Shown here one piece after another: positions 18,237 to 46,513 of a stretch of 48,957 nucleotides of DNA. The position numbers were made by a program, and so were the translations under genes. Position 1 is the first letter of the stretch. Every line of letters begins with the position of its first letter. The notes below the pieces were generated by a model that saw nothing but the letters and a program-made list of their open reading frames with translations, searched no databases and was not told the origin of the DNA. The stretch comes from a virus. The stretch covers positions 1 to 48,957 of the IMG/VR virus record IMGVR_UViG_3300008262_000116; one strand, 5' to 3'.

Positions 18237-18671
18237 TCACTTAGTCGAGGCGCGGAGTTGCCACGCCCATTTTTGGTGCATATCAATACGACCGGAAATA
18301 AAATCAGCTATGCCCTGCTGGTCTGCTTTGGTAGCCTTTTTAAAAACATCGTTTAGAGTTTTAATGACTGACTCATTTGCGGTGAGCAAAGCTTTGGCCA
18401 TGGCCTTTGGAGTAGGTTCTACATCTTTAAACGTTACAGTGGTAAGTTCATTAAACTTCTTTAGGCTAAATGGCGCGTAGTCATCCAGCTTTCTAACGTT
18501 CTCAGCAATGGGGTCGATTGAACCGTAAGCATCCTCATAAATGTCGGCAAACAGCCCGTGGTACTGACTGAAGTCTTGCCCCTCCACGTTCCAGTGATAC
18601 CCATGAGCCATGAAGTAGAATGTAACCACGTCAGACATGAGTACTTTTAAAGCTTTAATTAATTCTTCCAT
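18237..18671 (-). CDS. dps: Dps-type ferritin-like DNA-protection protein, 144 aa
   Basis: I chose ATG 18671 (MEELIKALK). Dps proteins form 12-mers that oxidise and store iron and often bind DNA. The ferroxidase ligands are all present with canonical spacing: His26 in HGYHWNVEG, His38 in YHGLFADIYEDAY, Asp53 and Glu57 in SIDPIAENVR. This matches the 12-15-4 spacing of Listeria Dps (H31, H43, D58, E62). It is the first gene of the leftward operon and diverges from the initiator-like gene. It probably protects phage DNA or controls iron and peroxide in the cell (inference). Confidence 0.88.
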   Translation of the reverse strand: MEELIKALKVLMSDVVTFYFMAHGYHWNVEGQDFSQYHGLFADIYEDAYGSIDPIAENVRKLDDYAPFSLKKFNELTTVTFKDVEPTPKAMAKALLTANESVIKTLNDVFKKATKADQQGIADFISGRIDMHQKWAWQLRASTK

Positions 18672-18722
18672 TGTGCTCCTAGTCAAACGGTCACCCCAAA
18701 TAATACCACCTCAACAATCGTT

Positions 18723-18759: not shown

Positions 18760-20013
18760 ATGGGAACTAGCAACGTATTTGGTGGGCGATTTATAGCCGT
18801 GCCCGAGTGGGCCTTGGCCTACATAAACGAGCATGGGCAACCACGCGACCTACAGATTCTGACTTGCCTTGTGTCAATGATAAACTTGCACGATAAGTCG
18901 GTAACTGTGTCTGTGGTAGACCTAGCGAAAGTCGCCCGCACTTCAAAAGAAACTGTAAAGAGATCACTCAAGTGGTTGTCCGATAACTTTGTAATTGGTG
19001 TTACGGTTGGCAAAAAGCCAAGCCCAAACACCTACACGGTACACTACACACAGCAAGTAATAGGGTCATCAGTGACCCCATATAGGGTCATGGATGACCC
19101 ATTGATAGGCACACCAGTGACCCCATTCGGGGTAGGGGGTGGGGTCACACATGACCCTATCAAAACGATTGAAATCCCAGCGTGCGATGGGTTTTCTGAA
19201 ACCCCTAGAGTATTACTACTATTGAATAGAGAAAATACAGAATCTATAAAGAGGGCCGATGGCCAGGATGGTATGGTTGTAGACATGATTTTAGGTGCAG
19301 ACCCAAACGAAATCTCTAAGGTTGAAGAACCGGTAAAACGCAAACCGCGTCCAGAGGTAAACAACCTAGTAAACTACTTCGTATATCACCCACGATCAGT
19401 GATGAGTTGCTCCTACACTTTCCAAGAAACTCAAATACTGAGAAGAACCATGCGGTTGTTGCTTGACTCAGGATTGACACGGGCATCCATTGCAAAAATG
19501 ATTGATAAGTTCTTCAGCACAGACCGTATGCGGTCAGCAGATTCACCAGTACATATGTTCTCTAGCAAAGCTGTACAGCAGTCATTGATGGAAAAGGTTG
19601 AAACTGAGCTGGATAGTGACACCAGCCCGGTGCTCACGTTGATGCTTAACGATTTCAACAGAGACAACGTACAACTACCGTGGGACTCATCGTCAGACAA
19701 ACACCTGCGCAACACCGTGATTATGACTGCAATAGACGCGTGCTATCGCTACCCAGAAGTAGTTGCTAGAGTTATTGAATCAACTGCGGACTTCTCAGTT
19801 CCAGAGTTTAGAAATAAACTTTCAGCCCTTAACTCGCTGGTTAAGTGGCATCTCAATACAGAGGATTGCGATAGAGATGAGCTCCTTAGCACCCTCTCCG
19901 ATATCACACTTCCAAAAGAATTGCTTGCTAAAACACGCTCATCCTTGAGACCCGCTGCTGATACGATTGTGTCAGCAATTTACAATTACAGAAGAGGTTC
20001 TCATGGGGTATGA
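18760..20013 (+). CDS. Winged-helix replication initiator-like protein, 417 aa
   Basis: I chose ATG 18760 (MGTSNVFGGRFIAVPEWALAY). TTG 18721 in frame is possible, but neither has a clear ribosome site. Residues about 10-90 form an HTH domain: ILTCLVSMINLHDKSVTVSV then LAKVARTSKETVKRSLKWL, then a wing. A polar linker encoded by repeated GGGTCA/TGACCC motifs follows, then a helical C-terminal domain (about 210-400). The gene directly precedes a helicase loader and a DnaB-type helicase, as initiators do in lambdoid phages (O, P). Role as initiator is inferred from the fold impression and gene order. Confidence 0.6.
   Translation: MGTSNVFGGRFIAVPEWALAYINEHGQPRDLQILTCLVSMINLHDKSVTVSVVDLAKVARTSKETVKRSLKWLSDNFVIGVTVGKKPSPNTYTVHYTQQVIGSSVTPYRVMDDPLIGTPVTPFGVGGGVTHDPIKTIEIPACDGFSETPRVLLLLNRENTESIKRADGQDGMVVDMILGADPNEISKVEEPVKRKPRPEVNNLVNYFVYHPRSVMSCSYTFQETQILRRTMRLLLDSGLTRASIAKMIDKFFSTDRMRSADSPVHMFSSKAVQQSLMEKVETELDSDTSPVLTLMLNDFNRDNVQLPWDSSSDKHLRNTVIMTAIDACYRYPEVVARVIESTADFSVPEFRNKLSALNSLVKWHLNTEDCDRDELLSTLSDITLPKELLAKTRSSLRPAADTIVSAIYNYRRGSHGV
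19063..19157. repeat. Cluster of GGGTCA/TGACCC motifs with three 6-4-6 dyads (candidate origin or operator)
   Basis: Seven copies of the 6-mer GGGTCA or its complement occur in 95 bases. Three pairs form perfect palindromes with 4-base centres: 19063-19078 (centre TCAG), 19085-19100 (TGGA) and 19142-19157 (CACA). A further TGACCC lies at 19118-19123. The constant half-sites and constant spacing over variable centres look like binding sites for a dimeric protein. They lie within the initiator-like gene just after its HTH-coding part, as origin iterons lie inside lambda O. A further spaced pair occurs at 20064-20088. Confidence 0.7.
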
Positions 20014-25980: not shown

Positions 25981-26670
25981 ATGTCAAGATACGACGACGA
26001 CGATACCGAAGTGATGGAAGAAGAAGCTCCTGTACGCCGACAGACAAAGGTAGTAGAGGACGACGACGCGGTATCTGTTAGTGCCGCGAGTGCCATCCGC
26101 CGTGGATGGGGAGCAGTAGAGCAGGCAAAGTCCGCAGACTCACCGTACGCCCAACGCCTTCGTGTTAGCGAAGAACCAATCATCATCAAGTTCCTTGAAG
26201 ATGAGCCTTACGCTACCTACAGACAGCACTGGGTTGAGCGCTCAGGACAGAAGTCATTCACCTGCATTGCCGACCTCGACCCCAAGGGTTGCCCACTGTG
26301 CGATGCCGGTAGCCGTCCGTCAACACGGTTTGCGTTCAACGTTGTCTTGCTGTCTCCTGATTCAGAGCCAGTCCTGAAGTCCTACGAGGTTGGTCCTAGA
26401 GTCATTGACCAACTCAAGAACTTCCACGTTGACCCACGGCAAGGACCTTTGTCTAAGCACTTCTGGGCCGTAAGCCGTTCGGGTAAGGGTGCTACCTCCG
26501 CAACCAACCACCAGCTGGTCAAGGAGCGAGACCTAGAAGAGTGGAACATCGATACCCTGACTGAAGCAGACTTCAAGGTCATGAACAAGTCTGTGTACAC
26601 CGCCGATATCATTCAGATCCCGTCCCGCAAGGACCTCATCCAGATTGCATTGGAAGATTTGTCTGACTGA
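25981..26670 (+). CDS. Probable single-stranded DNA-binding protein, 229 aa
   Basis: ATG 25981 follows an AAGAGAAAAGAG leader. The N-terminus is very acidic with two Asp/Glu runs (SRYDDDDTEVMEEEA). The core resembles the gp32-like ssDNA-binding proteins of actinophages: RLRVSEEPIIIKFLEDEPYA, then HWVERSGQKSFTC, GCPLCDAGSRP, FAFNVVLLSPDSEPVLKSYE and HFWAVSRSGKGA. A Cys cluster (C...CPLC) could bind zinc as in gp32. The immediate position before DNA polymerase supports the call. An acidic tail at the N-terminus rather than the C-terminus is notable. Confidence 0.6.
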   Translation: MSRYDDDDTEVMEEEAPVRRQTKVVEDDDAVSVSAASAIRRGWGAVEQAKSADSPYAQRLRVSEEPIIIKFLEDEPYATYRQHWVERSGQKSFTCIADLDPKGCPLCDAGSRPSTRFAFNVVLLSPDSEPVLKSYEVGPRVIDQLKNFHVDPRQGPLSKHFWAVSRSGKGATSATNHQLVKERDLEEWNIDTLTEADFKVMNKSVYTADIIQIPSRKDLIQIALEDLSD

Positions 26671-26671
26671 T

Positions 26672-28759
26672 ATGTCACAACTCAACAACCACGTGGGGGG
26701 CCTCATGGCCCCCCACGTAGTATCTTCAATTGAAGAGCTTCACAAAATTGTCCAACACATCCAGAGTGTTGGCGCTTTTGCTTTTGACGTAGAAACACGC
26801 GGCAACGTAGAACGTCACAGTGATGTTCTTGCGTGGATTGAACAAGAGTGGAAGCAGCACGAAAGCACTCTGAAAACAACATCTGAGGATGTGTTGGCTA
26901 GATCTAAAGAGGCCATCATCACTAGGTGGCAAAACACTTTGGCCCTAGATCCAATGAGAAACGAAGTCTTTTGGATTGGCTTAGCAACAGAGGGTAAGTC
27001 CTGGGCCGTACCCATGGGCCACCCAAATGGTGAGATACTCGTACCAGAAGAACGGGGTGACGGTACAACCACACCACCTCCTGGTTACCGCAAAGTCTTA
27101 GCAAATGGCAAAGAGTCCATGGCAAAGGCTAGGTACTACATACCGGCTGAGTACTCAGCAGCTCCTGAGCAACTTTCACGTACTGACGTGTTCAAAGTTT
27201 TGGAACCAATCTTCTTTAGTGATGTTGTCAAGGTTGGCCACAACGTCAAGTTTGACGCCAGATCGATCCGCAAGTATTACAACGACCGCTTACCCGATGG
27301 GCCGTTCATCGACACGATGATTATCCAGCACATTCTCAATGAGAATCTTTCTGAGTACAGCCTTGACAAACTGATTGCCCACAATTTTGGGGGCTTTAAC
27401 CCCTATCACATGGACGGCAAGATTGGTGCAATAATCACTCAGGTGCCATTCTCCAAAGCAGTTAGGTACGTGCACCTAGACGTAAAGTGGACATGGCATC
27501 TATACAAAGTCCTGTGGCAAAAGATCCAAAATAAAGAGCAGTTGCTTTCCTGCCTTCGGCAAGACATGGAGGTTATCCGTGTGTTGATGGACATGGAAGA
27601 CAACGGGATACCCGTAGACCATCGCTCCATGACTAGGCTTGGCAAAGAGTTAGACACTCATCTAAATGAACTCTTGCTTGGGATGATGGATTACGCACCT
27701 CCTGGGTTTAACCCAGACAGCCCTAAGCACAAACAACAACTGTTGTTTAGCAAGAAAAGCGAGGGTGGTCTTGGGCTAAAGCCCACCAAGTACACCGACA
27801 AGGGTTCGGCATCGGTTGATGAAGAAGCTCTTCGCAATCTTGAAAGCAAACACCCTGTAGTACCGCTGCTTATAGACTGGGCAGAAACTAAAAAGATCAA
27901 GTCAACCTATGTTGATGGGTTACTTACCAAACTACACAAAGGTTCTCTGCACCCGTCGTTCCACCTGCATAGAACAGCTACTGGAAGACTTTCCTCCAGC
28001 AACCCCAATCTGCAAAACATCCCAAGAGACAGTAGCGTCCGTGGTTTATTCGTAGCTAACCCCGGCCATGTATTGCTAGTCGCTGACTACGACCAGATCG
28101 AGCTTCGTGTTATGTGCATGTTCTCCGGAGACAAAAAGATGAGCGAGTTTTTCTTGAACAACGAGGACATCCACGCGGGTGCTGCCGCTCTTATCCTAGG
28201 TAAGGATGTGTCTGAGGTTACCCCAGAAGAACGCCAGCTTGGTAAAGGTGTTAACTTTCTCACGGCTTATGGTGGTGGCCCTCAAAAGTTGGCAAGAACC
28301 ACAGGAGTTGACGTAGAACACGCACGCTCCGTCATCGATCAGTACTACAAGCAGTTCTCTGGCATCACTAAATGGAAAAAGAGTGTTATTGAAGCAGGTA
28401 TCAAGAATGGGTACGTTGAGACCATCTCAGGAAGACGGCGTAGACTGCCAGATCTGCGCTCGGATGACAGCATGTTAAAGTCCAGAGCAGAGAGACAGGC
28501 AGTCAACGCGGTGGTACAGGGTTCTGCTGCTGACATATGTAAGAAAGCCATGATTGATGTAAACAATGTACTAACTGGGACAGGATCAAAGATCTTAGTC
28601 CAGGTGCATGACGAACTAGTAGCCATGGTCCCAGAGCAGATAGTTGACGAGTTACAGCAAAAGTTTGTATTAGCTATGGGAGATGGTAACATTATTAATG
28701 GTATTCCGTTAAAAGTTTCATGCCACTCAGCGTATAATTGGTCGGAGGCGAAAGGGTGA
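26672..28759 (+). CDS. polA: DNA polymerase I, family A, 695 aa
   Basis: The exonuclease domain has Exo I FAFDVETRG, Exo II KVGHNVKFDARSI and Exo III YVHLDVKWT (motifs complete). Polymerase motif A is VADYDQIELRVM, motif B RQLGKGVNFLTAYGGG (Lys, Phe and Tyr as in E. coli Lys758, Phe762 and Tyr766) and motif C VQVHDELVAMVP. The 5' nuclease domain is absent. Start: ATG 26672 follows the previous stop by 1 base, but ATG 26705 in frame, with GGGGGG just upstream, also works. Both lie at a perfect hairpin (26691-26718), so translation may be controlled there. Confidence 0.93.
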   Translation: MSQLNNHVGGLMAPHVVSSIEELHKIVQHIQSVGAFAFDVETRGNVERHSDVLAWIEQEWKQHESTLKTTSEDVLARSKEAIITRWQNTLALDPMRNEVFWIGLATEGKSWAVPMGHPNGEILVPEERGDGTTTPPPGYRKVLANGKESMAKARYYIPAEYSAAPEQLSRTDVFKVLEPIFFSDVVKVGHNVKFDARSIRKYYNDRLPDGPFIDTMIIQHILNENLSEYSLDKLIAHNFGGFNPYHMDGKIGAIITQVPFSKAVRYVHLDVKWTWHLYKVLWQKIQNKEQLLSCLRQDMEVIRVLMDMEDNGIPVDHRSMTRLGKELDTHLNELLLGMMDYAPPGFNPDSPKHKQQLLFSKKSEGGLGLKPTKYTDKGSASVDEEALRNLESKHPVVPLLIDWAETKKIKSTYVDGLLTKLHKGSLHPSFHLHRTATGRLSSSNPNLQNIPRDSSVRGLFVANPGHVLLVADYDQIELRVMCMFSGDKKMSEFFLNNEDIHAGAAALILGKDVSEVTPEERQLGKGVNFLTAYGGGPQKLARTTGVDVEHARSVIDQYYKQFSGITKWKKSVIEAGIKNGYVETISGRRRRLPDLRSDDSMLKSRAERQAVNAVVQGSAADICKKAMIDVNNVLTGTGSKILVQVHDELVAMVPEQIVDELQQKFVLAMGDGNIINGIPLKVSCHSAYNWSEAKG
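26691..26718 (+). promoter_or_regulatory. Strong 12-bp hairpin at the DNA polymerase start
   Basis: ACGTGGGGGGCC (26691-26702) and GGCCCCCCACGT (26707-26718) form a perfect 12-bp stem with the 4-base loop TCAT. The in-frame ATG 26705 has two bases in the loop and its G in the stem, and the G run that could be its ribosome site is buried in the 5' arm. No T tract follows, so it is not a standard terminator. A translational operator is suggested, comparable in location to T4 gp43's autogenous operator hairpin. Confidence 0.65.
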
Positions 28760-29214: not shown

Positions 29215-29614
29215 TTGGTGGTCTAAGAAACTTAGTGGTAATCCAACCACTTCTTCTAGACCCACAACTTCATCTATGCCACCGACTACAATCCCTATAC
29301 GCCTACCGTCTGGGCTGACTCACTCTAATCCTCAGCCATACAGAGACACTCCACTACCTCAACAACCTGTATCAAACGAACCCATTACCATGGGTGAAGC
29401 CCTAAGACAACCGCATCTATGGGAAGGTCGAGGAGAAGCTGCTAAGAAGCAGGGGAATCTAACCTGCCCAGAGTGTGGTAGTGGTAACGTATTTGTGCGT
29501 ACAGCTAAAGGTGGAAACACAACAATCAACGGTAACAGCCCAGCACCGCGATGCTTTGAATGCGGTTGGAATGGTATGTACGACCAAGCCTCCCAAGCTT
29601 CTTGGGGAGTATAA
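29204..29614 (+). CDS. Zinc-ribbon protein, 136 aa
   Basis: I chose ATG 29204 (MSSDWWSKKLSGN), which lies in the previous gene's acidic codons with a GAGG site. The first 75 residues are Pro/Thr/Ser-rich and disordered. Residues about 85-125 contain LTCPECGSGNVFVRT and APRCFECGWNG, a two-CxxC zinc ribbon. A small transcription- or recombination-associated ribbon protein is plausible. It is followed by recA, and the recA ribosome site lies just after its stop. Confidence 0.6.
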   Translation: MSSDWWSKKLSGNPTTSSRPTTSSMPPTTIPIRLPSGLTHSNPQPYRDTPLPQQPVSNEPITMGEALRQPHLWEGRGEAAKKQGNLTCPECGSGNVFVRTAKGGNTTINGNSPAPRCFECGWNGMYDQASQASWGV

Positions 29615-29628
29615 CAACAAGGAAAACA

Positions 29629-30648
29629 ATGAAAAGTGAAACTGGCCGTGAGAGCCTTGAATCCATTATTTCTTCTATTAACAAGAAATATGGAGATCAA
29701 GTTATTGTACAAGGAAACCAGGTAAAAGAAGAAGTGCCCCGTATTACAACAGGAGTACTAGCTTTTGATCTTATGCTTGGCGGCGGGTGGCCTATGAACC
29801 AATGGTCTGAGATCATTGGTGATGAGTCATCAGGGAAGACAGCTTTGGCTTACAAGACCATTGCTGCTAACCAAGCTGCTGACCCGGAGTGGGTGGCTAT
29901 GTGGATTGCCGCCGAAGAATTTGTTCCAGACTATGCAAAAGCTATCGGCGTTGATCTAGACCGCCTGTGGGTAGTTGAGACTAACGTAATGGAGCAAGTC
30001 TACGATCTTATTATTCGCGCAATGGAGAATAGGGCAGTTGACTGCATTGTTCTAGATTCACTTCCGGCACTAGTCCCCGGTGATGAAGCTGAGAAGATGA
30101 TGGATGAGTTCTCCATGGGTCTAGGAGCTAGACTGACTGGAAAGTTTTTCCGTAAGAGCAGCAAGGCGCAAAAGCGGTCGTTGATTAACGAGGATCGCGG
30201 GTGCACTGGTTTGATCATCAACCAATGGCGCGAGAAGATTGGCGTGATGTATGGAGACCCACGCACCACACCAGGTGGTAAAGCCAAGAACTTTCATTAC
30301 TTTGTAAGACTAGAAGTAAAACGAGATGAGTGGTTGAAGTTTAAAGATGAGCCAGTAGGTCAGACCATTAAAGCCAGAACTCTAAAGAACAAGACGTACA
30401 GACCGCAACAGGTTGCTGTTGTTGACTTCTACTTTGCTGACTGCCAATCATTCAAACTAGGTGACTTTGATGTGATCAAAGACATTGTTAACATCTGTAT
30501 TGCAACAGACATAATCACAAGAGCTGGAGCGTACTACAACTACAAAGACCAAAAGTGGCAAGGAAAAGATGCCCTATTGCTTGGAGTTCGCGAGGACTTG
30601 GGGCTACAATCTGAACTCAAAGAGAAAGCAAAGGAGTATTTCCTATGA
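29629..30648 (+). CDS. recA: RecA/UvsX-family recombinase, 339 aa
   Basis: I chose ATG 29629 (MKSETGRESLESII), just after AAGGAAAA. Walker A is GDESSGKT (residues 64-71), with GVLAFDLMLGGGWPMNQWSE before it. Walker B is CIVLDSLPALVPGDEAEKM, and the L2-type region is the helix plus TGLIINQWREKIGVMYGDP, where the strand ends in NQWREK. It lacks the long RecA C-terminal domain. It drives strand exchange and recombination-dependent replication with the nuclease genes that follow. Confidence 0.9.
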   Translation: MKSETGRESLESIISSINKKYGDQVIVQGNQVKEEVPRITTGVLAFDLMLGGGWPMNQWSEIIGDESSGKTALAYKTIAANQAADPEWVAMWIAAEEFVPDYAKAIGVDLDRLWVVETNVMEQVYDLIIRAMENRAVDCIVLDSLPALVPGDEAEKMMDEFSMGLGARLTGKFFRKSSKAQKRSLINEDRGCTGLIINQWREKIGVMYGDPRTTPGGKAKNFHYFVRLEVKRDEWLKFKDEPVGQTIKARTLKNKTYRPQQVAVVDFYFADCQSFKLGDFDVIKDIVNICIATDIITRAGAYYNYKDQKWQGKDALLLGVREDLGLQSELKEKAKEYFL

Positions 30649-30998
30649 TATTCGGTAGAGAAGACAGAGCAGATCAGCAACGTGAGATTATGAGAGCTTC
30701 CAAGAAGCAGGAGAAGCGTTCTGCCAAGATGTACAAAGGCAGTAGGAACGCAGGATCTGGGTCTGGTTGGCTTAGAAAGAACGACGTGCGCACTCACGAG
30801 CTTCTTATTGAGAACAAGCTCACAAACAATCTAAAGTCCTACTCAATTAAGGCTAGTGAGTTGGCTGATCTTACTCAGCGCGGTGTCCTTGAAGACCGTC
30901 TTCCAGTGCTTCAGTTTGACCTTGGGGGCAGACACTACGTAATTCTTAACGAGGCTGACTTCCAAATGTTGGTAGGAGTAGACGGGGATCGTCTGTGA
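30645..30998 (+). CDS. PD-(D/E)XK nuclease-like protein, 117 aa
   Basis: ATG 30645 overlaps the recA stop (ATGA). The centre has KMYKGSRNAGSGSGWLRKND, then VRTHELLIENKLTN, a good D-x(n)-ExK motif (Asp in NDVRT, Glu and Lys in IENK), then a helix and a GGRHYVILNEADFQ strand. This is the plan of small Hjc-type/endonuclease-fold proteins. The N-terminus is a basic helical lead. It lies with RecA and two more nucleases. Substrate is not known: junction resolvase is a fair guess. Confidence 0.6.
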   Translation: MIFGREDRADQQREIMRASKKQEKRSAKMYKGSRNAGSGSGWLRKNDVRTHELLIENKLTNNLKSYSIKASELADLTQRGVLEDRLPVLQFDLGGRHYVILNEADFQMLVGVDGDRL

Positions 30999-31864
30999 CA
31001 GAGACACCTTGGTACGCCAAGACTTACAAAGAATCAATAAAGTCAAAAGGTCGTATACTACCAGTAATACAAGAGCGGCTTGTGGTAAACAACCGTGAGA
31101 GAAACCAACACAGAGACACTGACCACTTGCATCCCTCTGAGCTTTCAAAGAAAGACTGGTGTGCTAGAGCCGCATGGTATAAAATTAACAAGTATCCTGC
31201 CTCAGATGAGTCATATAATATGACTAGATTAAATGTGTTTGAGGAGGGCCATGCGATTCATGCAAAGTGGCAGAAGTGGATGCACCAAGCTGGCATCCTT
31301 GGTGGCAAATGGGAATGTGCGTCGTGCTCTGAAGTATGGTACGGGGTTTCTCCTAGCTCTTGCCACCAGTGCAATTCTAGTAATGTCCTTTATCGCGAGG
31401 TACCTGTACGTGACGATGGGTTTCGCATACTCGGTCACGCGGATGGAGAATTGGTTGATGGGGAAGGCAAAGCCCTTATTGAAATAAAGAGCGTTGGCCT
31501 TGGCACCGTGCGGTGGGATCACCCAAACTTGTACAAAGCATACTCAAGTGGTGAACTAACCCTAGACGGCCTTTGGAAAAACATAAAAAAGCCATTTGCG
31601 TCCCACGTCCGTCAGGGCCACATCTACATGCACTGCACAGGCCACGACAAAATAGTGTTCATCTATGAGTGGAAGCCCACCCAAGAGGTAAAGGAATTTA
31701 CTGTTACCTTTCAAGAAGAAATAATGCAGCCAATTCTTAACAACTGCAGCAAAGTTATTGCACACTTAGAGGACAACACAGAACCAGAGCGCCCAGTTTG
31801 GGCATCTGATAGTAAGGCTAACGGTTGTAAATACTGCCCCTACAAGAAAGTTTGTTGGAATTGA
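30995..31864 (+). CDS. Cas4/RecB-like PD-(D/E)XK exonuclease, 289 aa
   Basis: GTG 30995 overlaps the preceding stop as GTGA. The nuclease core has HLHPSELSKKDWCARAAWYK, EEGHAIHAKWQKWMHQAG, then a CASCSEVWYG ... CHQCNSS zinc-ribbon insertion, then GHADGELVDGEGKALIEIKS, the active-site D ... EIK motif, and VRQGHIYMHCTG. The C-terminal SKANGCKYCPYKKVCW is the Cys cluster seen in Cas4-like 4Fe-4S nucleases with the first Cys in DWCARA. A role in end-resection for recombination is expected. Not a CRISPR-Cas component here. Confidence 0.8.
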   Translation: MTETPWYAKTYKESIKSKGRILPVIQERLVVNNRERNQHRDTDHLHPSELSKKDWCARAAWYKINKYPASDESYNMTRLNVFEEGHAIHAKWQKWMHQAGILGGKWECASCSEVWYGVSPSSCHQCNSSNVLYREVPVRDDGFRILGHADGELVDGEGKALIEIKSVGLGTVRWDHPNLYKAYSSGELTLDGLWKNIKKPFASHVRQGHIYMHCTGHDKIVFIYEWKPTQEVKEFTVTFQEEIMQPILNNCSKVIAHLEDNTEPERPVWASDSKANGCKYCPYKKVCWN

Positions 31865-32355
31865 GAGTAATACCAAAAGATGATGGAGACCCTGCTCTCT
31901 CCAAATTTAAGAGTAAGTTCTCCCTGCCTACTAGGCCGTCAGACAACCCACCAGAACTACCAGACCACCTAGACGACCTAGACGACAGTGACCTAATGGA
32001 TTTGTATACAGAGTTCATGTCTTGGGTATCTTACACAAAGGGCCAGTTAGTGCAAGCTGAAATTGATGAAGATAGGGATGGCAACCTATGTAGAATCACA
32101 GAAGCAAAAGTATTGATTGAGCAGTGGGGGTCTGATGTTAAGGGTGACCGGGTAACGATTGCTAAGGCACGTCGAGACACAGACCATCGGGTTGTTGCTC
32201 AGCAAGAGAAGTACCAAGTTTCTAGAGCTTATCGTAAACTAGTTGAAGCTGTATTTGAATCCTGTGAACGCGGGGCCCAGTTGCTTTCGCGAGAGCTAAG
32301 TCGTAGAATTGGTTTAAGTAGTAAAGACAGCAGAACATCAAGATTCGGAGCATGA
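31861..32355 (+). CDS. Hypothetical protein, 164 aa
   Basis: I chose TTG 31861 (TTGA overlap with the previous stop), giving MRVIPKDDGDPALSKF; TTG 31852 and 31855 are alternatives. The protein begins polar and acidic (HLDDLDDSDLMDLYTEFM) and is then helical, with KVLIEQWGSDVKGDRVTI and EKYQVSRAYRKLVEAVFESC. The acidic N-terminus followed by helices is like small nuclease-associated or terminase-like subunits, but there is no family motif. Function unknown. Confidence 0.5.
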   Translation: MRVIPKDDGDPALSKFKSKFSLPTRPSDNPPELPDHLDDLDDSDLMDLYTEFMSWVSYTKGQLVQAEIDEDRDGNLCRITEAKVLIEQWGSDVKGDRVTIAKARRDTDHRVVAQQEKYQVSRAYRKLVEAVFESCERGAQLLSRELSRRIGLSSKDSRTSRFGA

Positions 32356-32356
32356 T

Positions 32357-32524
32357 ATGTCAGATCCCTACGGATACGCCGCAGCAAAAGAAGCAAACGC
32401 CCGACTTAAGCGGCAGCAAGATACCTACCGGTATACAACCGAGCCACTTAACAGACTCAATGATACCCTGCAGGATATCCTAAATGAACTTCGTAAGATC
32501 AACGACAAGCTACACAATGACTGA
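32357..32524 (+). CDS. Small helical protein, 55 aa
   Basis: ATG 32357 comes just after the previous stop, and the stop TGA is at 32522-32524. The protein MSDPYGYAAAKEANARLKR has a helical heptad pattern in its second half (LNRLNDTLQDILNELRKIND), suggesting a coiled coil. It overlaps the next gene by 8 bases. Function unknown. Confidence 0.5.
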   Translation: MSDPYGYAAAKEANARLKRQQDTYRYTTEPLNRLNDTLQDILNELRKINDKLHND

Positions 32525-32729
32525 CGACATTGTTACCCGGCTAGAAAACTGGGATGATCAGCAGCCACCATTCTCAGTAATGCAGGAAGCCGCAGATGAG
32601 CTTAAACGGCTGCGAGCCGCACTTGAAGACTGTGAGAGAGATTTCCACTCACTCAAGGTGATGTTTGATAAAATGAGAGTTGGCCGGAACTACTGGCGCA
32701 AGTATGCAGAGCAGAACTATGGCAAATAG
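32517..32729 (+). CDS. Small coiled-coil protein, 70 aa
   Basis: I chose ATG 32517 (MTDDIVTRLENWDD), overlapping the previous stop. The protein has a helical body, AADELKRLRAALEDCERDFH then MFDKMRVGRNYWRKYAEQNY. Its end resembles the 60-aa protein at 25364 (YW-x3-Y motif). It overlaps the resolvase gene by 11 bases. Function unknown. Confidence 0.5.
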   Translation: MTDDIVTRLENWDDQQPPFSVMQEAADELKRLRAALEDCERDFHSLKVMFDKMRVGRNYWRKYAEQNYGK

Positions 32730-33084
32730 AGCTAAACAAAAAGGCACATCGTTTGAAACGTCTATTAAACGTTATCTAAACGCTAATGGTTTTCTAAAAG
32801 CCGCCCGTACTGTCCTCAAAGGTAGTGAAGACACAGGAGATATCAACGGAATCAGAAACAATCTTGCCGAAAGAGAGCTTGCTATACAGTGTAAAAACCA
32901 ACGTAAGCTAAACCTAAGTGGTTGGTTAGACGCAACTGTTGAGCAAGCATCCAAACTGGGCAAGTCGATGCCAGCTTTAGTTGTTAAGCGGGCTGGTAAA
33001 GGTGAAAAAGCATTAGGTGATACCTACGTTGTGATGCGGTTAGATGACTTTGTTACTCTGCTGAAAGAGGGCGGTTACTCGTAA
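32719..33084 (+). CDS. Holliday junction resolvase-like PD-(D/E)XK protein, 121 aa
   Basis: I chose ATG 32719 (MANRAKQKGTSFETSIKRY). The fold matches the archaeal Hjc/phage resolvase type: GTSFETSIKRYLNANGF, GSEDTGDINGI (active Asp in GDI), ELAIQCKNQRK (the E/QxK strand), a helix and GDTYVVMRLDDF. QxK in place of ExK is a common variant. It forms, with the two nucleases at 30645 and 30995, a set near recA. A weak terminator follows. Confidence 0.75.
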   Translation: MANRAKQKGTSFETSIKRYLNANGFLKAARTVLKGSEDTGDINGIRNNLAERELAIQCKNQRKLNLSGWLDATVEQASKLGKSMPALVVKRAGKGEKALGDTYVVMRLDDFVTLLKEGGYS

Positions 33085-33090
33085 AATTAT

Positions 33091-33110
33091 AGGGTTGATA
33101 ACAACCTTTT
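33091..33110 (+). terminator. Weak intrinsic terminator after the nuclease cluster
   Basis: GGTTG and CAACC (33093-33097 and 33102-33106) form a 5-bp stem with loop ATAA, extended by an A and a G-U pair, and followed by TTTT. It sits in the 44-base gap before the SpoVS-like gene. It is short, so read-through is likely. It may set the ratio of the replication block to downstream genes. Confidence 0.45.
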
Positions 33111-33128
33111 AAACATACGGAGTAAACT

Positions 33129-33410
33129 ATGTCCCAAGAACCAGTAGATGATATTGTAAAAGTATCAGGTGGAAGCAATCCACAAAGCGTAGGGTCGATT
33201 GTAGCCAGGTCAGTAATCGCTGGACAGTCCCCTAAAATGCGCGCAATAGGCGCCAGTGCTGTTAACCAAGCAGTTAAGGCATGCGCTATTGCCAGAGGCT
33301 TCGTAGCACCAAGAGGGGTCGACCTATGCTTTATCATAGGGTTTGACGACATTCCAGGAGACAACGGAGAAACGATTTCCGCTATCTCTTTTAAGCCTGT
33401 TACACGTTAA
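33129..33410 (+). CDS. SpoVS-like protein, 93 aa
   Basis: ATG 33129 has an ACGGAG site upstream. The protein matches the stage V sporulation protein S family through almost all its length: VKVSGGSNPQSVGSIVARSV, then MRAIGASAVNQAVKACAIAR, GFVAPRGVDLCFI and ISAISFKPV. In known SpoVS the AIGA-x-ALNQAVKA segment and GFVAPxGVDL loop are the hallmark. SpoVS is an Alba-like, possibly DNA- or RNA-binding fold, with regulatory roles in Bacillus. In this phage the role is unknown. It stands alone between two presumed transcription units. Confidence 0.85.
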   Translation: MSQEPVDDIVKVSGGSNPQSVGSIVARSVIAGQSPKMRAIGASAVNQAVKACAIARGFVAPRGVDLCFIIGFDDIPGDNGETISAISFKPVTR

Positions 33411-33426
33411 CCATAACCCAAATAAC

Positions 33427-33438
33427 TGGTATTATATT
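33427..33438 (+). promoter_or_regulatory. Candidate extended -10 promoter
   Basis: TGGTATTATATT lies 33 bases before the 1685-residue gene and resembles an extended -10 (TGG plus TATTAT). No -35 TTGACA is visible. A similar TGGTAATATAGA occurs at 46537, also in a gap before an unlinked gene. The two share GGTA-T/A-TATA and may be a phage-specific promoter class. This is motif reading only. Confidence 0.4.
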
Positions 33439-33470
33439 AAGTAACGCGTGCTTTTCTCATGGAGTAACCA

Positions 33471-36400
33471 ATGGCCAAAGACCCAAACGAAGACACATCC
33501 AACCTCAGTGGGTTATCAGCTGAAGATGCCGCTCAGCTTAAAAAGCTAATCGACGCTTCAGGTGGTTTTTACGCTGCTAAAGATGGCAAAGTTGTAGACG
33601 TTTCCAACACACCAGAGTTCAAAGCACTGTTTAAGTCGTCTAGCGCAGATGTACGTGCTAAATTAAGTGGTTTAAAGAAAGCAGCAAAATCAAAAGTATC
33701 TAAAGAGGTAAAAGCTGATAAAGAAGACCCAGAAAGAAAGCGTAGACTTGGATCTTCAAAAACAGAAACCACTAGAAACGTAGCAGCTTCACAAGTTAAA
33801 AAACTTGGTACTGCTCAAGAACGTGCTGATGTAATCTCTGCACGACAAGCTCGTGTTGAAAAATTCCCAACCACTGAAAAGATTGCCGACGTTAAAGAAG
33901 CTCTGTCGCTTAAACAGCGTGGGCAAGCTAAGGTAACTGACCCAGACACTGGGGTTACCACGGTAGTTCCAGACCCAAAGGGAGTCCCCCAACTTGAAGG
34001 TACTGGTGCAATACCACGTATTCAAGGAGGAACATCACAGCTAGGTACTCCCCAACCTGGCAGAGACCGGGCTACAACAACCCCTGCCCCACAAATACCC
34101 AGAGCTAATGCAGACGAGATGGGAAGAGTTGGCTTTCGTGGTAGAAAGCCCACTGCTGCAGAATACGTAGCGCACATTCTATATATGCAAGGATGGGGAA
34201 AAGAGGGTGCAAGTGATGATCTTGCACCTAACGAAATGTACGAAGCCCCAAGGGCATCTGATGATGAAACAGCCGCAGACGTATCGGAACAAGTAGAGAT
34301 ACCAACCACACCCTTTACCGAGAGCTCTTCTCTAGTAGAAAAAGGTGAACAAGGAGCGATCACCTTTGGTGAAGGTGGAAAAGACATTGTAAAAGGATCA
34401 GCACGGTCCGCTGCTGACACAGAGCAAAGAGCTTTGTCTGAACTTGGAGCAATCCCAGCCCCAGATCAGGGGTCTAACCCATTAGCAGAAGCTGCATCGT
34501 TAGAGCAAGGTGCGCTACATACTGGCCAAACCTCAGCGGCACTGTCTGGCCAATTTAAGGATACAGTAGATGCTGCAAGGCTAGCTGCCGCTGCAAACTT
34601 GTTGATTTCCCCAGAATTAAACCGTATGCGTTTGCGTGAGGGTGAAGTGGCTAGAGGAGTAGCTGAGCCCGTATTCAGAGGAAACTTCACAGTACGCAGA
34701 ACCCCTAGTGAGTTTAAGTTAGTAAAAACACCAGTTATGGACCCAACTACGGGTAAACAGAAAAGAGATGCTAACGGTAAACTCGTTTGGCAAAAAACAA
34801 GAGGTGGCATTCCCGAAACTCAACCGATGAAAGTCTCAGGTAAGGAGTCACTACGCCCAAGCACGGCTACTGTACGAGGACCGTTTGCTGTCGAGCCAGA
34901 TGAAACATCATCAACGCTAACGCCATACGAAGAGCAGATTGCTGAGTCATACACAAGATCTGTAGGGGAAGCAGGTTCTAAAGAGTTCGCTGAAGCCGAC
35001 AAAATGTTGGACACAGTAACCGGAGGCTACACCGCTTCCCTTGAACCCTCAGAGTTTGGTAATTACACTCCAGTTACCAACCTTAGCCCACAGTTGTACC
35101 CATGGGTAGATAGATCACAGCAACCTGCTGTTAGAACTATACCTGGATCAAGCGAAAGTAAATCAGTAGACGAACTGTCTACTACTAAGCCTAACGCTGA
35201 AACGCCTAGTGAAAAGGAAGCTTACTTTTCTAAGCTACAAGAAGGTATCGAAAAGCAAGATGAAGCCCGTGGGTCCAGGTATGGAGTGCGTAGAGACAGC
35301 GAAGGAAACATCATTGATGTAGGTCTTGACACAGACGTTGTAGGGATGGAGCTACGAAAAGGCGGCCTGATTAAGGAAGTAGTGGGGTCTGAGCAAGTAG
35401 TAGTAGACCCAACTACTGGTAAACCTAAAAGATCAGGACCTAGAAGGGTACACATTAGAAGAAGCCCAGAATCATTAAGACGACAAAACATAGTTCTTCA
35501 AGAGCTAGCAACTGACTCGACTATAAACCAAATGCGTGTACCAAGTTATTATGTACAACCACAACCAGCTGGAGTGTACAGAGATGATACTCCTATTGAC
35601 CCAGAAACCGGAAACGTTCGCACACCAAAAGGTGTAGCCGAAAAACTTAAGTTTGGTTCTGGAGAAAGGGTAATCTCAAACGTTGAAACGTCAGATCCAA
35701 GATGGACCGATTACGACTACTCAACAAAGATGGTTGAAAAAGAAGGAACAGATGCTTCAGGAAAACCAACAACTATTCCAACGGCAGAAGAAGGCGTTGT
35801 AAGACGTATTATTCCAACTGCAAGAGGTCTTAAGCCAGAGGGACCAACGGTTGAAGAAGACACAGCTGCCAAGATTGAACAGGTAATACCTGGATTTAAA
35901 GAAAAAGGTATCCCTGGTGTAATAAGTCCTCAACTGGTTACCAATGTTTTTGCAAATGTACAAAAAGATATTTTAAGGAGAAAAGCTGGCGGTGAAACTG
36001 GCCCAGTTCGCCGTCGTTCTGAAGAAGAACAAAGAAACTACCTACAGTCAATTGGCGAAAAGCCAATGTACACAGATGAAGAGTTTGGAAAAATACAAGA
36101 GTTTCGTGAAAGAGAAAGATCAGCTGATGACGAAGCATTGAAATCAGCAGTAGAAGCACTATCCCAAAGAAAGCCGCTAGTAGAGCAAGCGTTGAAAGAC
36201 CTAGCTACTATTAAAGATGTAAAGTCCAAGGCGGAAGAAGAAGTAGCAAAGCAAATTCGTGAAGGTAGCCATCCAAGTGCTATAAGAAAAGATGGTTCAA
36301 CCAACCCCACGTTTATGCCAATCGAACCATTGTCACCGACAGCTTCACCGGAAGAAAAGAAACTACACAAAGCGAGAACCTCAGCTCAAAATCGTGTCAT

Positions 36401-38528
36401 AAGAGCAGCAGGAAGAGAAGCTGTTAACGCACACATTAACTCTGTTTCAGAGTCTTCAGGGTTCAAGACTGACGTTAGAGGCGATGTAAAAGTCGATGAA
36501 TCTGGAACTCCAATTCAGCTTGACGACACGTCAGACTCATTAGTAAACCCAGAAGACGAGACAGAAATCCGTGTAAGGGTAATGAAAGCCTTACACCAAA
36601 AAATCAGTCCATCTGTTGCTGGAACAGAATCTAAAAGAACTGTACCAAGAAAGTTCTATTACCGCATTCAAAAAGATAAACGCGGTAATGCCGTACTAGA
36701 CGAAGACGGTAATCCAGTTGTCATGGAATCTGAGAAACGGTCGTTCCCTGTTCAAAAAACAGACGACCAAGGTAAGCCCGTTAGAGACACTAGAGGTAAC
36801 GTCACACAAGATGTTGACGAAACTGGAGCTCCAATAACAGAGAGGTCTACTGTAAAACTAACCCCGTTTGTAACAACAGCAGAACAACTGGGTAAAGGTA
36901 AAGGAAAAACTCCTGGAATTTCAGTTAAAAGTGAACTGGATATCAAATCTGAGGGGGGTGTGTGGCACCCCACAGAGAACCCCAAGGGAAGCTACATAGT
37001 AAAGGATGCAACCCCATTAACCGTTGCTCGCACCAAATCAGAACGTCTAAGAGAAAAAGGTGGCGCTACATCCGCTGGTGATCTAGAACTTGGTGATGAA
37101 GGACTAATCCACAGTGTGCTGGATAGCCTTCGCGTACCAGCAGGTGAGGGCACTACTGCTCCGTTCTTGAGACCAGTACCTGCAGGTGTTAGTGTCCAAA
37201 CGTTAAATGACCTAAACTACAAAGTAACAGCACCTGAAACCGCCCGCGACATGCCTACAGTTGAAGAAGCTACAGGAGCGGCACCTTCACCTACCCGCCC
37301 AGGTGCACTGGGGTCCCAATTTGATATTAGAACAACTGAAGCTACCCCACGTGACCCTGCAGCGTCGTTCACTATTCCAGAGACTACTGAAGAAAAGGTA
37401 GCTCTTGCTAAAAAACTAAAAGTAAACTTGTCAATAGCAACTCCAAACATGCTACGTACAAGTCGTGGTGTTACTCGTCAAAGTGTTGGTGCTTCCACCG
37501 GGGACATTCTTGGGGACAAACCAAGACCAGCAGACACCCGTGTGAGTGCAATGACCGATGTTGGTACTCCAACTGAAGTTGATGAGGGAACATCCCCATT
37601 GCAGGCCGTTGCTCAAATACAAAGTGGAGCTCTTGGCGTTGGCGACATGCAAAAAGAGTTCTCAATTCGCGACGTTCGTGCAAGAAACGCATCCGATCGC
37701 GCAGCTCAGCATGAACGTAACAAAGCTGATGCTCTAAGGAGAGTCCCACAACAACCTATAAGCAACCCATACGTTGAAGCCTTTAAGGCAAAATTAGGAC
37801 CTACCCCCATTAAAATTAATGTTCCCCCGTCTAGGGAGGCTCGTAACCAGGCGGATGCTCTAAGAGCAGAGCGCACAAATCTACTAAGAGACCGGGAGGG
37901 TAGCTTAAACCCTTCTAGTATTGACGAGCGCACGGCACAATTAGAAAAAGAAATTTCTGAATTACACGCTGGAACTACCATATCAAGGCCCCTTAGTGAC
38001 CTTCCTATGGCAATTAACCAAGTTCGTTCGGGCCAGGGAACTAGATCAGTTGACACTCGTGCTCCATTAATGCCAACAACTGATATGCCAGTAAACCGCC
38101 CATATCTAGAAGGTGACGCAGTTCCTTCTAGTAGATTAGTAAATGCTGGTCAATACGCTCGTATTGCCCCTAGAACTGGAAACTTCACACGCGGATCAGG
38201 TAAGCAGTACTACGGAGAGGTCACATACACCGGAGAAGGGCCAAGGTACTCAGAAATTGCAGGTCCAGAAGGTAGGGGTAAGAGAGCTAATACGCTTACC
38301 ACCATGTCAGAAAGTGCTCCTTACATAGAAGGGGTAGACCGAGATACTAATACTATTGGTGGACGCGAACTTCTTCCAATACAATCTGCCCAAAAAGCAC
38401 CAGCTTTTCCTGGTCAAGCACCACCAGCAAGGGGAGCCGCACAAACACCAGGACCTGACTTTACACCAGATCCAATACAGAATCGCAGCCTTTCACCACA
38501 ATTTAAAAATACCAACAAACAACCTTGA
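33471..38528 (+). CDS. Giant polar repetitive-like protein of unknown function, 1685 aa
   Basis: ATG 33471 follows a GGAG site. This is by far the largest gene in the window. The protein is rich in Glu, Lys, Arg, Ser, Thr, Pro and Gly with few aromatic residues, no signal peptide and no membrane segment. Short hydrophilic blocks recur, such as VMDPTTGKQKRDANGKLVW, VVDPTTGKPKRSGPRR and VLDEDGNPVVMESEKRSFPV, which look like DG/TG hairpin repeats. It appears largely disordered. I do not recognise a family. It precedes a cluster of small Gly/Pro-rich genes, so a virion or ejected protein is possible. Confidence 0.6.
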   Translation: MAKDPNEDTSNLSGLSAEDAAQLKKLIDASGGFYAAKDGKVVDVSNTPEFKALFKSSSADVRAKLSGLKKAAKSKVSKEVKADKEDPERKRRLGSSKTETTRNVAASQVKKLGTAQERADVISARQARVEKFPTTEKIADVKEALSLKQRGQAKVTDPDTGVTTVVPDPKGVPQLEGTGAIPRIQGGTSQLGTPQPGRDRATTTPAPQIPRANADEMGRVGFRGRKPTAAEYVAHILYMQGWGKEGASDDLAPNEMYEAPRASDDETAADVSEQVEIPTTPFTESSSLVEKGEQGAITFGEGGKDIVKGSARSAADTEQRALSELGAIPAPDQGSNPLAEAASLEQGALHTGQTSAALSGQFKDTVDAARLAAAANLLISPELNRMRLREGEVARGVAEPVFRGNFTVRRTPSEFKLVKTPVMDPTTGKQKRDANGKLVWQKTRGGIPETQPMKVSGKESLRPSTATVRGPFAVEPDETSSTLTPYEEQIAESYTRSVGEAGSKEFAEADKMLDTVTGGYTASLEPSEFGNYTPVTNLSPQLYPWVDRSQQPAVRTIPGSSESKSVDELSTTKPNAETPSEKEAYFSKLQEGIEKQDEARGSRYGVRRDSEGNIIDVGLDTDVVGMELRKGGLIKEVVGSEQVVVDPTTGKPKRSGPRRVHIRRSPESLRRQNIVLQELATDSTINQMRVPSYYVQPQPAGVYRDDTPIDPETGNVRTPKGVAEKLKFGSGERVISNVETSDPRWTDYDYSTKMVEKEGTDASGKPTTIPTAEEGVVRRIIPTARGLKPEGPTVEEDTAAKIEQVIPGFKEKGIPGVISPQLVTNVFANVQKDILRRKAGGETGPVRRRSEEEQRNYLQSIGEKPMYTDEEFGKIQEFRERERSADDEALKSAVEALSQRKPLVEQALKDLATIKDVKSKAEEEVAKQIREGSHPSAIRKDGSTNPTFMPIEPLSPTASPEEKKLHKARTSAQNRVIRAAGREAVNAHINSVSESSGFKTDVRGDVKVDESGTPIQLDDTSDSLVNPEDETEIRVRVMKALHQKISPSVAGTESKRTVPRKFYYRIQKDKRGNAVLDEDGNPVVMESEKRSFPVQKTDDQGKPVRDTRGNVTQDVDETGAPITERSTVKLTPFVTTAEQLGKGKGKTPGISVKSELDIKSEGGVWHPTENPKGSYIVKDATPLTVARTKSERLREKGGATSAGDLELGDEGLIHSVLDSLRVPAGEGTTAPFLRPVPAGVSVQTLNDLNYKVTAPETARDMPTVEEATGAAPSPTRPGALGSQFDIRTTEATPRDPAASFTIPETTEEKVALAKKLKVNLSIATPNMLRTSRGVTRQSVGASTGDILGDKPRPADTRVSAMTDVGTPTEVDEGTSPLQAVAQIQSGALGVGDMQKEFSIRDVRARNASDRAAQHERNKADALRRVPQQPISNPYVEAFKAKLGPTPIKINVPPSREARNQADALRAERTNLLRDREGSLNPSSIDERTAQLEKEISELHAGTTISRPLSDLPMAINQVRSGQGTRSVDTRAPLMPTTDMPVNRPYLEGDAVPSSRLVNAGQYARIAPRTGNFTRGSGKQYYGEVTYTGEGPRYSEIAGPEGRGKRANTLTTMSESAPYIEGVDRDTNTIGGRELLPIQSAQKAPAFPGQAPPARGAAQTPGPDFTPDPIQNRSLSPQFKNTNKQP

Positions 38529-38737: not shown

Positions 38738-38846
38738 AAAGAAGAAGACTGAAAAGAAACAGACTCCTAAACCTAAGCCAATCTCAAACGTTGGTGGTGG
38801 ACAAGGCGGTATCCTAGGAGCTTTTGGAGGAACCCTTGGCCGCTAG
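38706..38846 (+). CDS. Small Lys/Gly-rich protein, 46 aa
   Basis: ATG 38706, stop at 38844-38846. The start is a run of Lys and Ser (MASKKTSSTSKKKKTEKK), the end Gly-rich (GGGQGGILGAFGGTLGR). The basic N-terminus could bind DNA. The gene lies with 32 and 11 bases of overlap to its neighbours. I see no better frame here. Function unknown. Confidence 0.5.
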   Translation: MASKKTSSTSKKKKTEKKQTPKPKPISNVGGGQGGILGAFGGTLGR

Positions 38847-39339
38847 TCCAAACCAGCAGACATTTACTGATTGGGGTGGAGGCTACGATCCTTATGTACC
38901 AGAAAGCCAGCCCATGCTTGGCCCAACCCCATCGTTTAGGAATGCTAAGGATGCACGTTTAGCTGCATGGGGTGGTTCCCCTGACACTCAGTACCCAGAC
39001 GGTTACTTGGGTACAATGTCTTCCAACCGTAGACAAGATAAGATTGTAAACGCTGTTGCTAGAACCAACACTAGGCCCTATAGTCGAGGAGTCCACAAGG
39101 GGGAGCGCATCAACGCTGGCGACTACCTATGGCCAGAAGAATTTAACCTTCAAACTGGTTTACTATATCAATCACAAGGTATGAAGTTTGCACCCCCAGG
39201 TGCCGCGCCAGTTCAGCTAACCAACGATGGTAAGGCTGGTCCAAGGGGTATACCAAGAGGTATAGGTAGACAGCAGCAAGAGGTTATTGACATGCAAAGA
39301 CGGAGCCTTCTTAAAACCCTAGCTCCGCCTTGGAAATGA
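38836..39339 (+). CDS. Hypothetical Gly/Pro-rich protein, 167 aa
   Basis: I chose TTG 38836 (MAASPNQQTFTDWGG) with GGAGG 5 bases upstream. TTG 38824 would place the ribosome site inside the gene. The protein is rich in Gly, Pro, Asn and Tyr with LGPTPSFRNAKDARLAAWGG, YLGTMSSNRRQDKIVN and PRGIPRGIGRQQQEV segments. No transmembrane or known domain. It may be a minor virion protein with its neighbours (inference from composition and clustering). Confidence 0.55.
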   Translation: MAASPNQQTFTDWGGGYDPYVPESQPMLGPTPSFRNAKDARLAAWGGSPDTQYPDGYLGTMSSNRRQDKIVNAVARTNTRPYSRGVHKGERINAGDYLWPEEFNLQTGLLYQSQGMKFAPPGAAPVQLTNDGKAGPRGIPRGIGRQQQEVIDMQRRSLLKTLAPPWK

Positions 39340-46138: not shown

Positions 46139-46513
46139 ATGGACTGGATGGAAGATGCTCCGTGCCGTGGATTGAATCCGGATATCTTCTTTCCTCCCCT
46201 TGATCAGACAAACCACAACTCTTACTACAAAGCTGGAAAAGCCGTATGTCACACATGTGATGTGTGGGAAGAGTGCTTGAACTATGGTATAGACGAAACT
46301 TGGGGATTGTGGGGTGGGTTGACTCCGCAAGAACGAAGAGGTACAGCGAGACTTCATCACGGAGTTATCGAAATGTATCGTTCTGGGTGTCGATGCCCGA
46401 AGTGTAGAGAGTCATCTGTAACAGTAAGAAAGAGAATCCCAAAAGAAATATTCCCTGCTAGAGGGCAAGAATTCAACATAGAATCGTTAGTTTTCAAACT
46501 TTCCAGCATGTGA
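46139..46513 (+). CDS. WhiB-family 4Fe-4S transcription regulator, 124 aa
   Basis: ATG 46139 comes one base after the previous stop. The four cluster ligands are Cys9 (DAPCRGLNPD), Cys37 and Cys40 (VCHTCDVW) and Cys46 (EECLNYG), the canonical C-x(n)-CxxC-x5-C pattern. The GLWGG motif at 56-60 followed by LTPQERR is the WhiB signature turn. A C-terminal extension (about 77-124) has CRCPKC and a basic RKRIPKE, perhaps for DNA. Such phage WhiB proteins can change host gene expression or exclude other phages (known for mycophage TM4). This gene fixes the host to Actinobacteria. Confidence 0.93.
   Translation: MDWMEDAPCRGLNPDIFFPPLDQTNHNSYYKAGKAVCHTCDVWEECLNYGIDETWGLWGGLTPQERRGTARLHHGVIEMYRSGCRCPKCRESSVTVRKRIPKEIFPARGQEFNIESLVFKLSSM

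Follow-up and report, generated by a model that had tools for sequence, protein, structure and literature searches.

In the phages examined here, the gene for a SpoVS-type protein is a fixed core gene of the recombination block and no stray accessory. SpoVS is more likely to belong to the phage DNA machinery than to be a borrowed sporulation gene, and with about even confidence it can be proposed to be an Alba-like nucleic-acid binder which serves phage recombination or junction processing and is translated under hairpin control from the message of a resolvase. The computed evidence for this proposal comprises the protein family, the predicted fold, a fixed linkage to the resolvase-type gene, strong conservation, a phage branch separate from bacterial SpoVS and the tendency of the leader to form a hairpin.

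The window, i.e., the whole stretch of DNA analysed, is an IMG/VR virus record of 48,957 bases (Table 1). Its SpoVS gene starts with ATG and codes for 93 amino acids with no internal stop. The original prediction had recognized stage V sporulation protein S over most of this protein, an identity borne out by the Pfam family SpoVS (PF04232, E 3.7e-20, 71.9 bits against a cut-off of 24, with residues 8–88 aligned to positions 1–80 of the 83 of the profile), by PHROG 35646 "sporulation protein" (E 1.5e-15, class moron, auxiliary metabolic gene and host takeover) and by the Thermus SpoVS structures 2eh1/2ek0 (E 7.7e-11); both sequence motifs that it quoted are found in the protein. The G-A, N-Q and K positions are invariant across all 56 aligned SpoVS, phage and bacterial, and the net charge of the window protein, from a residue count, is about +1. 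By tblastn, SpoVS was detected in 11 of 50,697 phage records, each time at less than 60 percent identity, and a DNA-level search of phage records with positions 20000–44999 of the window gave no near match.

Table 1. Features of the window around SpoVS and elsewhere in the record
Feature	Position	Strand	Basis
Family A DNA polymerase	26645–28759	+	Pfam
RecA/UvsX recombinase, SpoVS-independent search anchor	29560–30648	+	Pfam/PHROG
Second small nuclease, PHROG 2002 "Holliday junction resolvase"	30645–30998	+	PHROG
Exonuclease, PHROG 2506, also Cas4-domain PHROG 1990	30995–31864	+	PHROG
167-aa block protein, no family found (Pfam/PHROG), kept in many relatives	31852–32355	+	
Holliday-junction-resolvase-type nuclease, PHROG 244 "RusA-like", E 2.8e-27	32719–33084	+	PHROG
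Hairpin, downstream of the resolvase stop and upstream of the SpoVS ribosome-binding site	33087–33112	+	Fold, –7.7 kcal/mol
GGAG, likely SpoVS ribosome-binding site	33119–33122	+	Read from sequence, six bases before ATG
SpoVS, 93 aa, predicted Alba-type fold	33129–33410	+	Pfam, PHROG, PDB matches, predicted model
1685-aa protein downstream of SpoVS, no family found (Pfam/PHROG)	33471–38528	+	
WhiB-like regulator, PF02467, E 2e-15	46139–46513	+	

An AlphaFold2 model of the window protein, built from 56 own sequences (pLDDT 91.7), matches SpoVS 2eh1 (Z 15.3, rmsd 1.5 over 86 residues) and a YunD-SpoVS cross-link model (Z 16.0). The model also matches 1udv (Z 10.5), the Alba-RNA complex 3wbm (Z 10.4) and an Alba2-DNA complex (Z 9.2), and RNase P/MRP Alba-type proteins are among its fold matches too. 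The predicted fold and these solved structures lend support to the Alba-like nature proposed for the protein, and a 2024 survey assigns SpoVS to the Alba superfamily (PMC11621453); the words phage, virus and viral are absent from the available main text of this survey.

A search of IMG/VR with SpoVS retrieved 191 relatives from 223 stretches, of which 80 (77–100 percent identical) were used. In this SpoVS-chosen set (80 of 191) the resolvase-type gene lies directly before SpoVS in 80 of 80 loci, and seven block genes keep an uninterrupted order wherever they are present. Because choosing the set by SpoVS brings a selection bias, RecA was used as an independent anchor, and the best 80 of 323 contigs were taken. 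SpoVS comes right after the resolvase-type gene in 53 of the 53 contigs with room, that is, with the resolvase-type gene present and at least 400 bases beyond it; the remaining 27 are too short to judge, 4 of them stopping at the resolvase gene and 23 showing none, the latter ending 2 to 1926 bases past RecA. Among 31 nonredundant genomes (of 54) from the RecA-anchored set, SpoVS is the slowest of nine block genes, with the highest median pairwise identity (0.81, vs. 0.76 for RecA, 0.67 for the resolvase, 0.64 for the polymerase, 0.60 for g167, 0.54 for the exonuclease and 0.36 for g158), and the synonymous difference is similar among the block genes compared and near saturation. A recent non-functional copy with a disrupted core, the case put forward as refuting the original prediction, is excluded for the protein, whose sequence is intact and strongly conserved and which is fixed throughout the clade. 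All 73 distinct loci of the window clade have the resolvase next to SpoVS; the largest BLAST cluster before the resolvase fills 11 loci and that after SpoVS 8, a variability of the outer genes possibly overstated by BLAST clustering. Since gene order within the block is generally conserved, with no break across 80 loci, the adjacency of SpoVS and resolvase on its own may reflect inherited order.

In the window, SpoVS closes a run of genes on the + strand without break (polA, recA/UvsX, exonuclease, resolvase-type nuclease). Its position after a nuclease block had thus been correctly predicted; of the description of a gene standing alone with its own leader, the leader holds, being 44 bases long and carrying a hairpin, and the isolation does not. 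The resolvase-type reading frame is open from 32680, with an ATG at 32719, and its nearest Pfam models, PDDEXK_15 and Mrr_cat, are each below cut-off. The block carries two genes labelled as Holliday junction resolvases. The 1685-aa protein is altered or undetected in most relatives, and beyond this changing gene another one (38824–39339) recurs in many of them. BLAST matches the gene of the WhiB-like regulator in 17 of 80 relatives, a set in which many contigs end before this region; WhiB proteins are actinobacterial, and the host of the phage is therefore probably an actinobacterium. The contig also has a tail-sheath gene (PF17482), an SNF2-type helicase (PF00176, 23382–24929), a deaminase (PF00383, 48482–48874) and a ferritin-like gene (PF00210, E 1.3e-17, 18237–18686, – strand), Dps-like by eye, on the strand opposite to the flanking long reading frames.

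The linkage extends beyond the window clade. Two added viral searches used distant SpoVS alignments (best 80 of at least 600 matches each), and 272 viral SpoVS loci were reduced to 203 that are distinct by gene and 150 upstream bases, or 204 rows with the window. The direct upstream neighbour is RusA-like in 82 rows, RuvC-like in 68 and an endonuclease VII in 6 (five from clustering and one, L170, from its reading frames); a resolvase is found at positions 2–4 in 21 rows, the contig edge is reached in 4 and none is found in 23. In 19 rows, placed by a hand list with the bacterial-type SpoVS, no resolvase lies within four genes (18 none, 1 edge), and in the remaining 185 it does so in 177, with 3 edges and 5 rows where none was called. 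In the other phage groups, 25 of 112 loci have a zinc-ribbon or DUF1599 gene directly next to SpoVS instead, and for 21 of these 25 a resolvase is called 2–4 genes upstream. The neighbour families were confirmed on representatives, with PHROG 244 matched by six outlying RusA-like neighbours and L272, PHROG 159 by six RuvC-like neighbours, and PF02945 and PHROG 307 by two endonucleases VII; the resolvase calls rest mostly on PHROG labels, Pfam matches being below threshold or missing except for endonuclease VII. RusA-like, RuvC-like and endonuclease VII proteins have three unrelated folds.

In the SpoVS tree (92 rows, 95 columns, 31 of 89 inner branches open and the bootstrap not fully settled), a branch with support of 100/100 splits 60 phage rows from 32 others, 15 bacterial and 17 bacterial-like viral. 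On the 57 rows labelled by resolvase family (30 RuvC, 25 RusA, 2 endonuclease VII) the fewest changes are seven, where two is the minimum possible, and the well-supported branches force at least four changes of the RusA label; the resolvase next to SpoVS thus appears to have been swapped among three families in about seven exchanges. The bacterial rows are the ones closest to phage SpoVS among the matches listed (best 80 used), and actinobacterial SpoVS is represented among these matches by one Actinobacteria-labelled MAG (L326). Within that same best 80 the top identity to the window protein is 57 percent and, together with the separate branch, this value led to the rejection of a recent acquisition of the window gene from the host. 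An origin in the host fits better the SpoVS of Lysinibacillus LysYB1 and Stenotrophomonas TS-12, which lie among Bacillota with modest support. TS-12 (L084) carries a host label unexpected for this position, as does Chryseobacterium sp. ISL-80 (L334), which turned up in the Bacillota hits; both may be mislabelled or have transferred genes. In the bacterial loci spoVS directly follows a YmdB-type cluster in 55 of 80; RNase Y lies two or three genes upstream in 49, and in 15 the third place upstream is taken by a RecA-type cluster. The cluster names come from one representative each. This YmdB/RNase Y context is usual, although not required for the family, and in the window a resolvase-type gene is found instead.

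The hairpin of the window leader, two bases past the resolvase stop, has a 7-bp stem and three outer pairs (z –2.2, with 4 of 200 shuffles as low). In the window clade (31 nonredundant of 73 leaders) the median folding z is –1.78 and 42 percent of the leaders are below –2, compared with a median of 0.01 and 7 percent for 216 control starts in the same loci with gaps of at least 25 (p 4e-8, kinship not removed) and with 6 percent for 300 starts having smaller gaps. Among the nine block genes the SpoVS leader alone is strongly low (median z –1.98, the others ranging from –0.50 to 0.28). The 40 bases past the resolvase stop have a median z of –2.12, with 58 percent below –2; past the RecA stop 30 percent are also below –2, with a median of –0.37. 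Over 29 nonredundant leaders the ungapped identity is 0.29, so that folding is better preserved than sequence. Within the clade, 16 of 31 leaders leave the ribosome-binding site unpaired and 11 pair it, and in 4 no such site was found. The other phage groups, when pooled, show the signal more weakly (59 leaders, median z –1.42, 39 percent below –2; 256 controls, –0.28 and 14 percent; p 1e-7), and in them the stem often includes the ribosome-binding site, partly as judged by eye. Stems of this type were seen by eye in L264 (3903–3970), L206 (3952–4003) and L223 (3933–3994), and in L264 a second hairpin, with a GGGA loop, lies inside the stem. In windows of 45 bases before the start, z is –1.11 for the RuvC group and –0.58 for the zinc-ribbon group, both weak signals, and –1.93 for DUF1599 (n = 4); the leader signal is absent from the endonuclease VII group (+0.82, n = 3) and from bacterial spoVS (+0.38, n = 69 of 80 loci).

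Rfam gave no match in 15 loci at the gathering score, nor in window positions 32000–34000 at E up to 1. RNAalifold returned no consensus on the leader alignments A6 and A8, which we think is due to misalignment of such diverged leaders by MAFFT. In A6, which holds 30 of 53 group leaders selected by a shared motif, a helix named by eye, and thus chosen after looking, has 75.1 percent of its cells paired and scores higher for covariation than all 500 shuffles; in 11–14 of the 30 rows, four of the nine pairs do not form. The A7 helix, predicted by RNAalifold from the same six rows, is 93.1 percent paired and equalled by 19 of 500 shuffles. A model of the RuvC-group leaders (R1) has 70 matches in 100 sources, every one at a SpoVS start, which is weak evidence as these sources are mostly close kin of the training set; in the remaining sources, including the window and L037, it has no match, and the window clade was not shown to share any loop or stem sequence with the other groups. 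Reading the leader as a terminator is not favoured: the consensus scan calls none there on the + strand, giving the same stem as a candidate for the – strand, and the T run after the stem is missing in several relatives. For the window itself a terminator may still be considered.

Taken together, the linkage, the conservation and the fold suggest that SpoVS acts on nucleic acid within a step of phage recombination, and the hairpin suggests a dose control tied to the resolvase message. Within the Alba superfamily, SpoVS of the phage would be a form of the SpoVS branch specific to phages, acting inside a recombination/replication module of the phage itself. It would oligomerize like Alba-type proteins, bind branched or single-stranded recombination intermediates, or RNA, and assist a step of the neighbouring Holliday-junction-resolvase-type nuclease, for example the clearance of branched DNA before packaging. 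A message shared with the resolvase is suggested by the spacing of only 44 bases, and the leader hairpin may gate SpoVS translation from it, either by coupling, in which the ribosome finishing the resolvase would melt the hairpin, or by self-repression, in which SpoVS would bind the hairpin and limit its own synthesis. A stronger version, which can be put forward only tentatively, is that SpoVS is an obligate Alba-type cofactor of junction resolvases, kept while the nuclease swaps among three unrelated families, and that a phage-specific hairpin operator in the leader sets its dose.

An alternative, although an unlikely one, is that SpoVS acts mainly on RNA, as an Alba-like translational repressor of phage mRNAs including its own leader. 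The Alba-RNA complex and the RNase P/MRP proteins among the fold matches are in favour of it, as is the folding signal of the leader; however, translational coupling explains the hairpin equally well, and neither the R1 model nor any demonstrated loop or stem sequence joins the window clade to the other groups. It is rather improbable that SpoVS is a chromatin-like coat which condenses or shields phage DNA after replication, or is carried in the virion. The predicted Alba fold and the place of the gene at the downstream end of the replication block would suit such a coat, but the near-neutral charge of SpoVS would not, and the constant tie to a resolvase would be left unexplained.

About as improbable is the reading found in viromics papers, according to which the phage protein imitates host SpoVS and directs development or dormancy of the host. 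Besides the literature, where spoVS is listed as a viral sporulation gene (PMC6172770; PMC8940887; PMC9765229, in the parts available), it draws on the PHROG category of the protein and on the WhiB-like gene of the same contig. Against it, the patchiness expected of a moron or auxiliary metabolic gene is not seen, SpoVS being universal in the contigs with room, and the gene lies in the replication block. The 100/100 branch parts it from bacterial SpoVS, to which its best identity is 57 percent among the best 80 matches listed, and the sampled bacterial genes mostly adjoin YmdB and RNase Y.

Phage spoVS has thus already been published as a sporulation auxiliary gene, a role against which the present evidence argues. 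As far as the accessible parts of these papers go, viral spoVS is read as a help to host sporulation in PMC6172770 and PMC8940887, and likewise in PMC9765229; this sporulation role is proposed without a test, which is consistent with the statement in the original prediction that no role in phages is established. A table of sporulation genes of gut phages in mBio (PMC10294663) lists, in the part available, spoVG, spoVT and others, and does not show spoVS, and the available text of a study on Bacillus thuringiensis SpoVS (PMC8510167) contains no DNA- or RNA-binding test of the protein. In the open-licence literature searched no phage paper deals by title with SpoVS and the Holliday junction, no title concerns the SpoVS-resolvase linkage, and no paper on SpoVS with YunD was found. 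Ecology papers count viral spoVS as help to host sporulation, and if these genes are truly recombination genes, such inferences need revision. If the proposal is true, a small phage system that offers a candidate partner gene and an assayable leader would make the molecular job of SpoVS testable; we know of no assay of this job in bacteria either.

Among the systems already described, the viral spoVS genes of PMC6172770 and PMC8940887 share the family name with the window gene, a likeness known by name, and unlike the present loci they are reported, in the available parts of both papers, with no mention of a resolvase linkage or of a leader. The "sporulation protein" gp51 of Streptomyces phage BRock is a SpoVS located 120 bases after a RuvC-like resolvase, in the same order as in the window, with 41 percent identity to the window protein and a resolvase of a different family. 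Bacterial SpoVS (Bacillus; Thermus 2eh1/2ek0) matches the same PF04232 model, has the same fold (Z 15–16) and the same invariant residues, with 37 percent identity between the Thermus and window proteins; phage SpoVS, in contrast, has a branch of its own and a resolvase neighbour in the place where YmdB and RNase Y are found in most of the sampled bacterial loci, and its leader has the folding signal that bacterial spoVS lacks. Archaeal Alba, a chromatin- and RNA-binding protein, has the same predicted fold as phage SpoVS (Z 9–10.5), at an identity of 11–20 percent for the archaeal Alba entries matched; Alba proteins are basic, whereas the charge of phage SpoVS is near zero.
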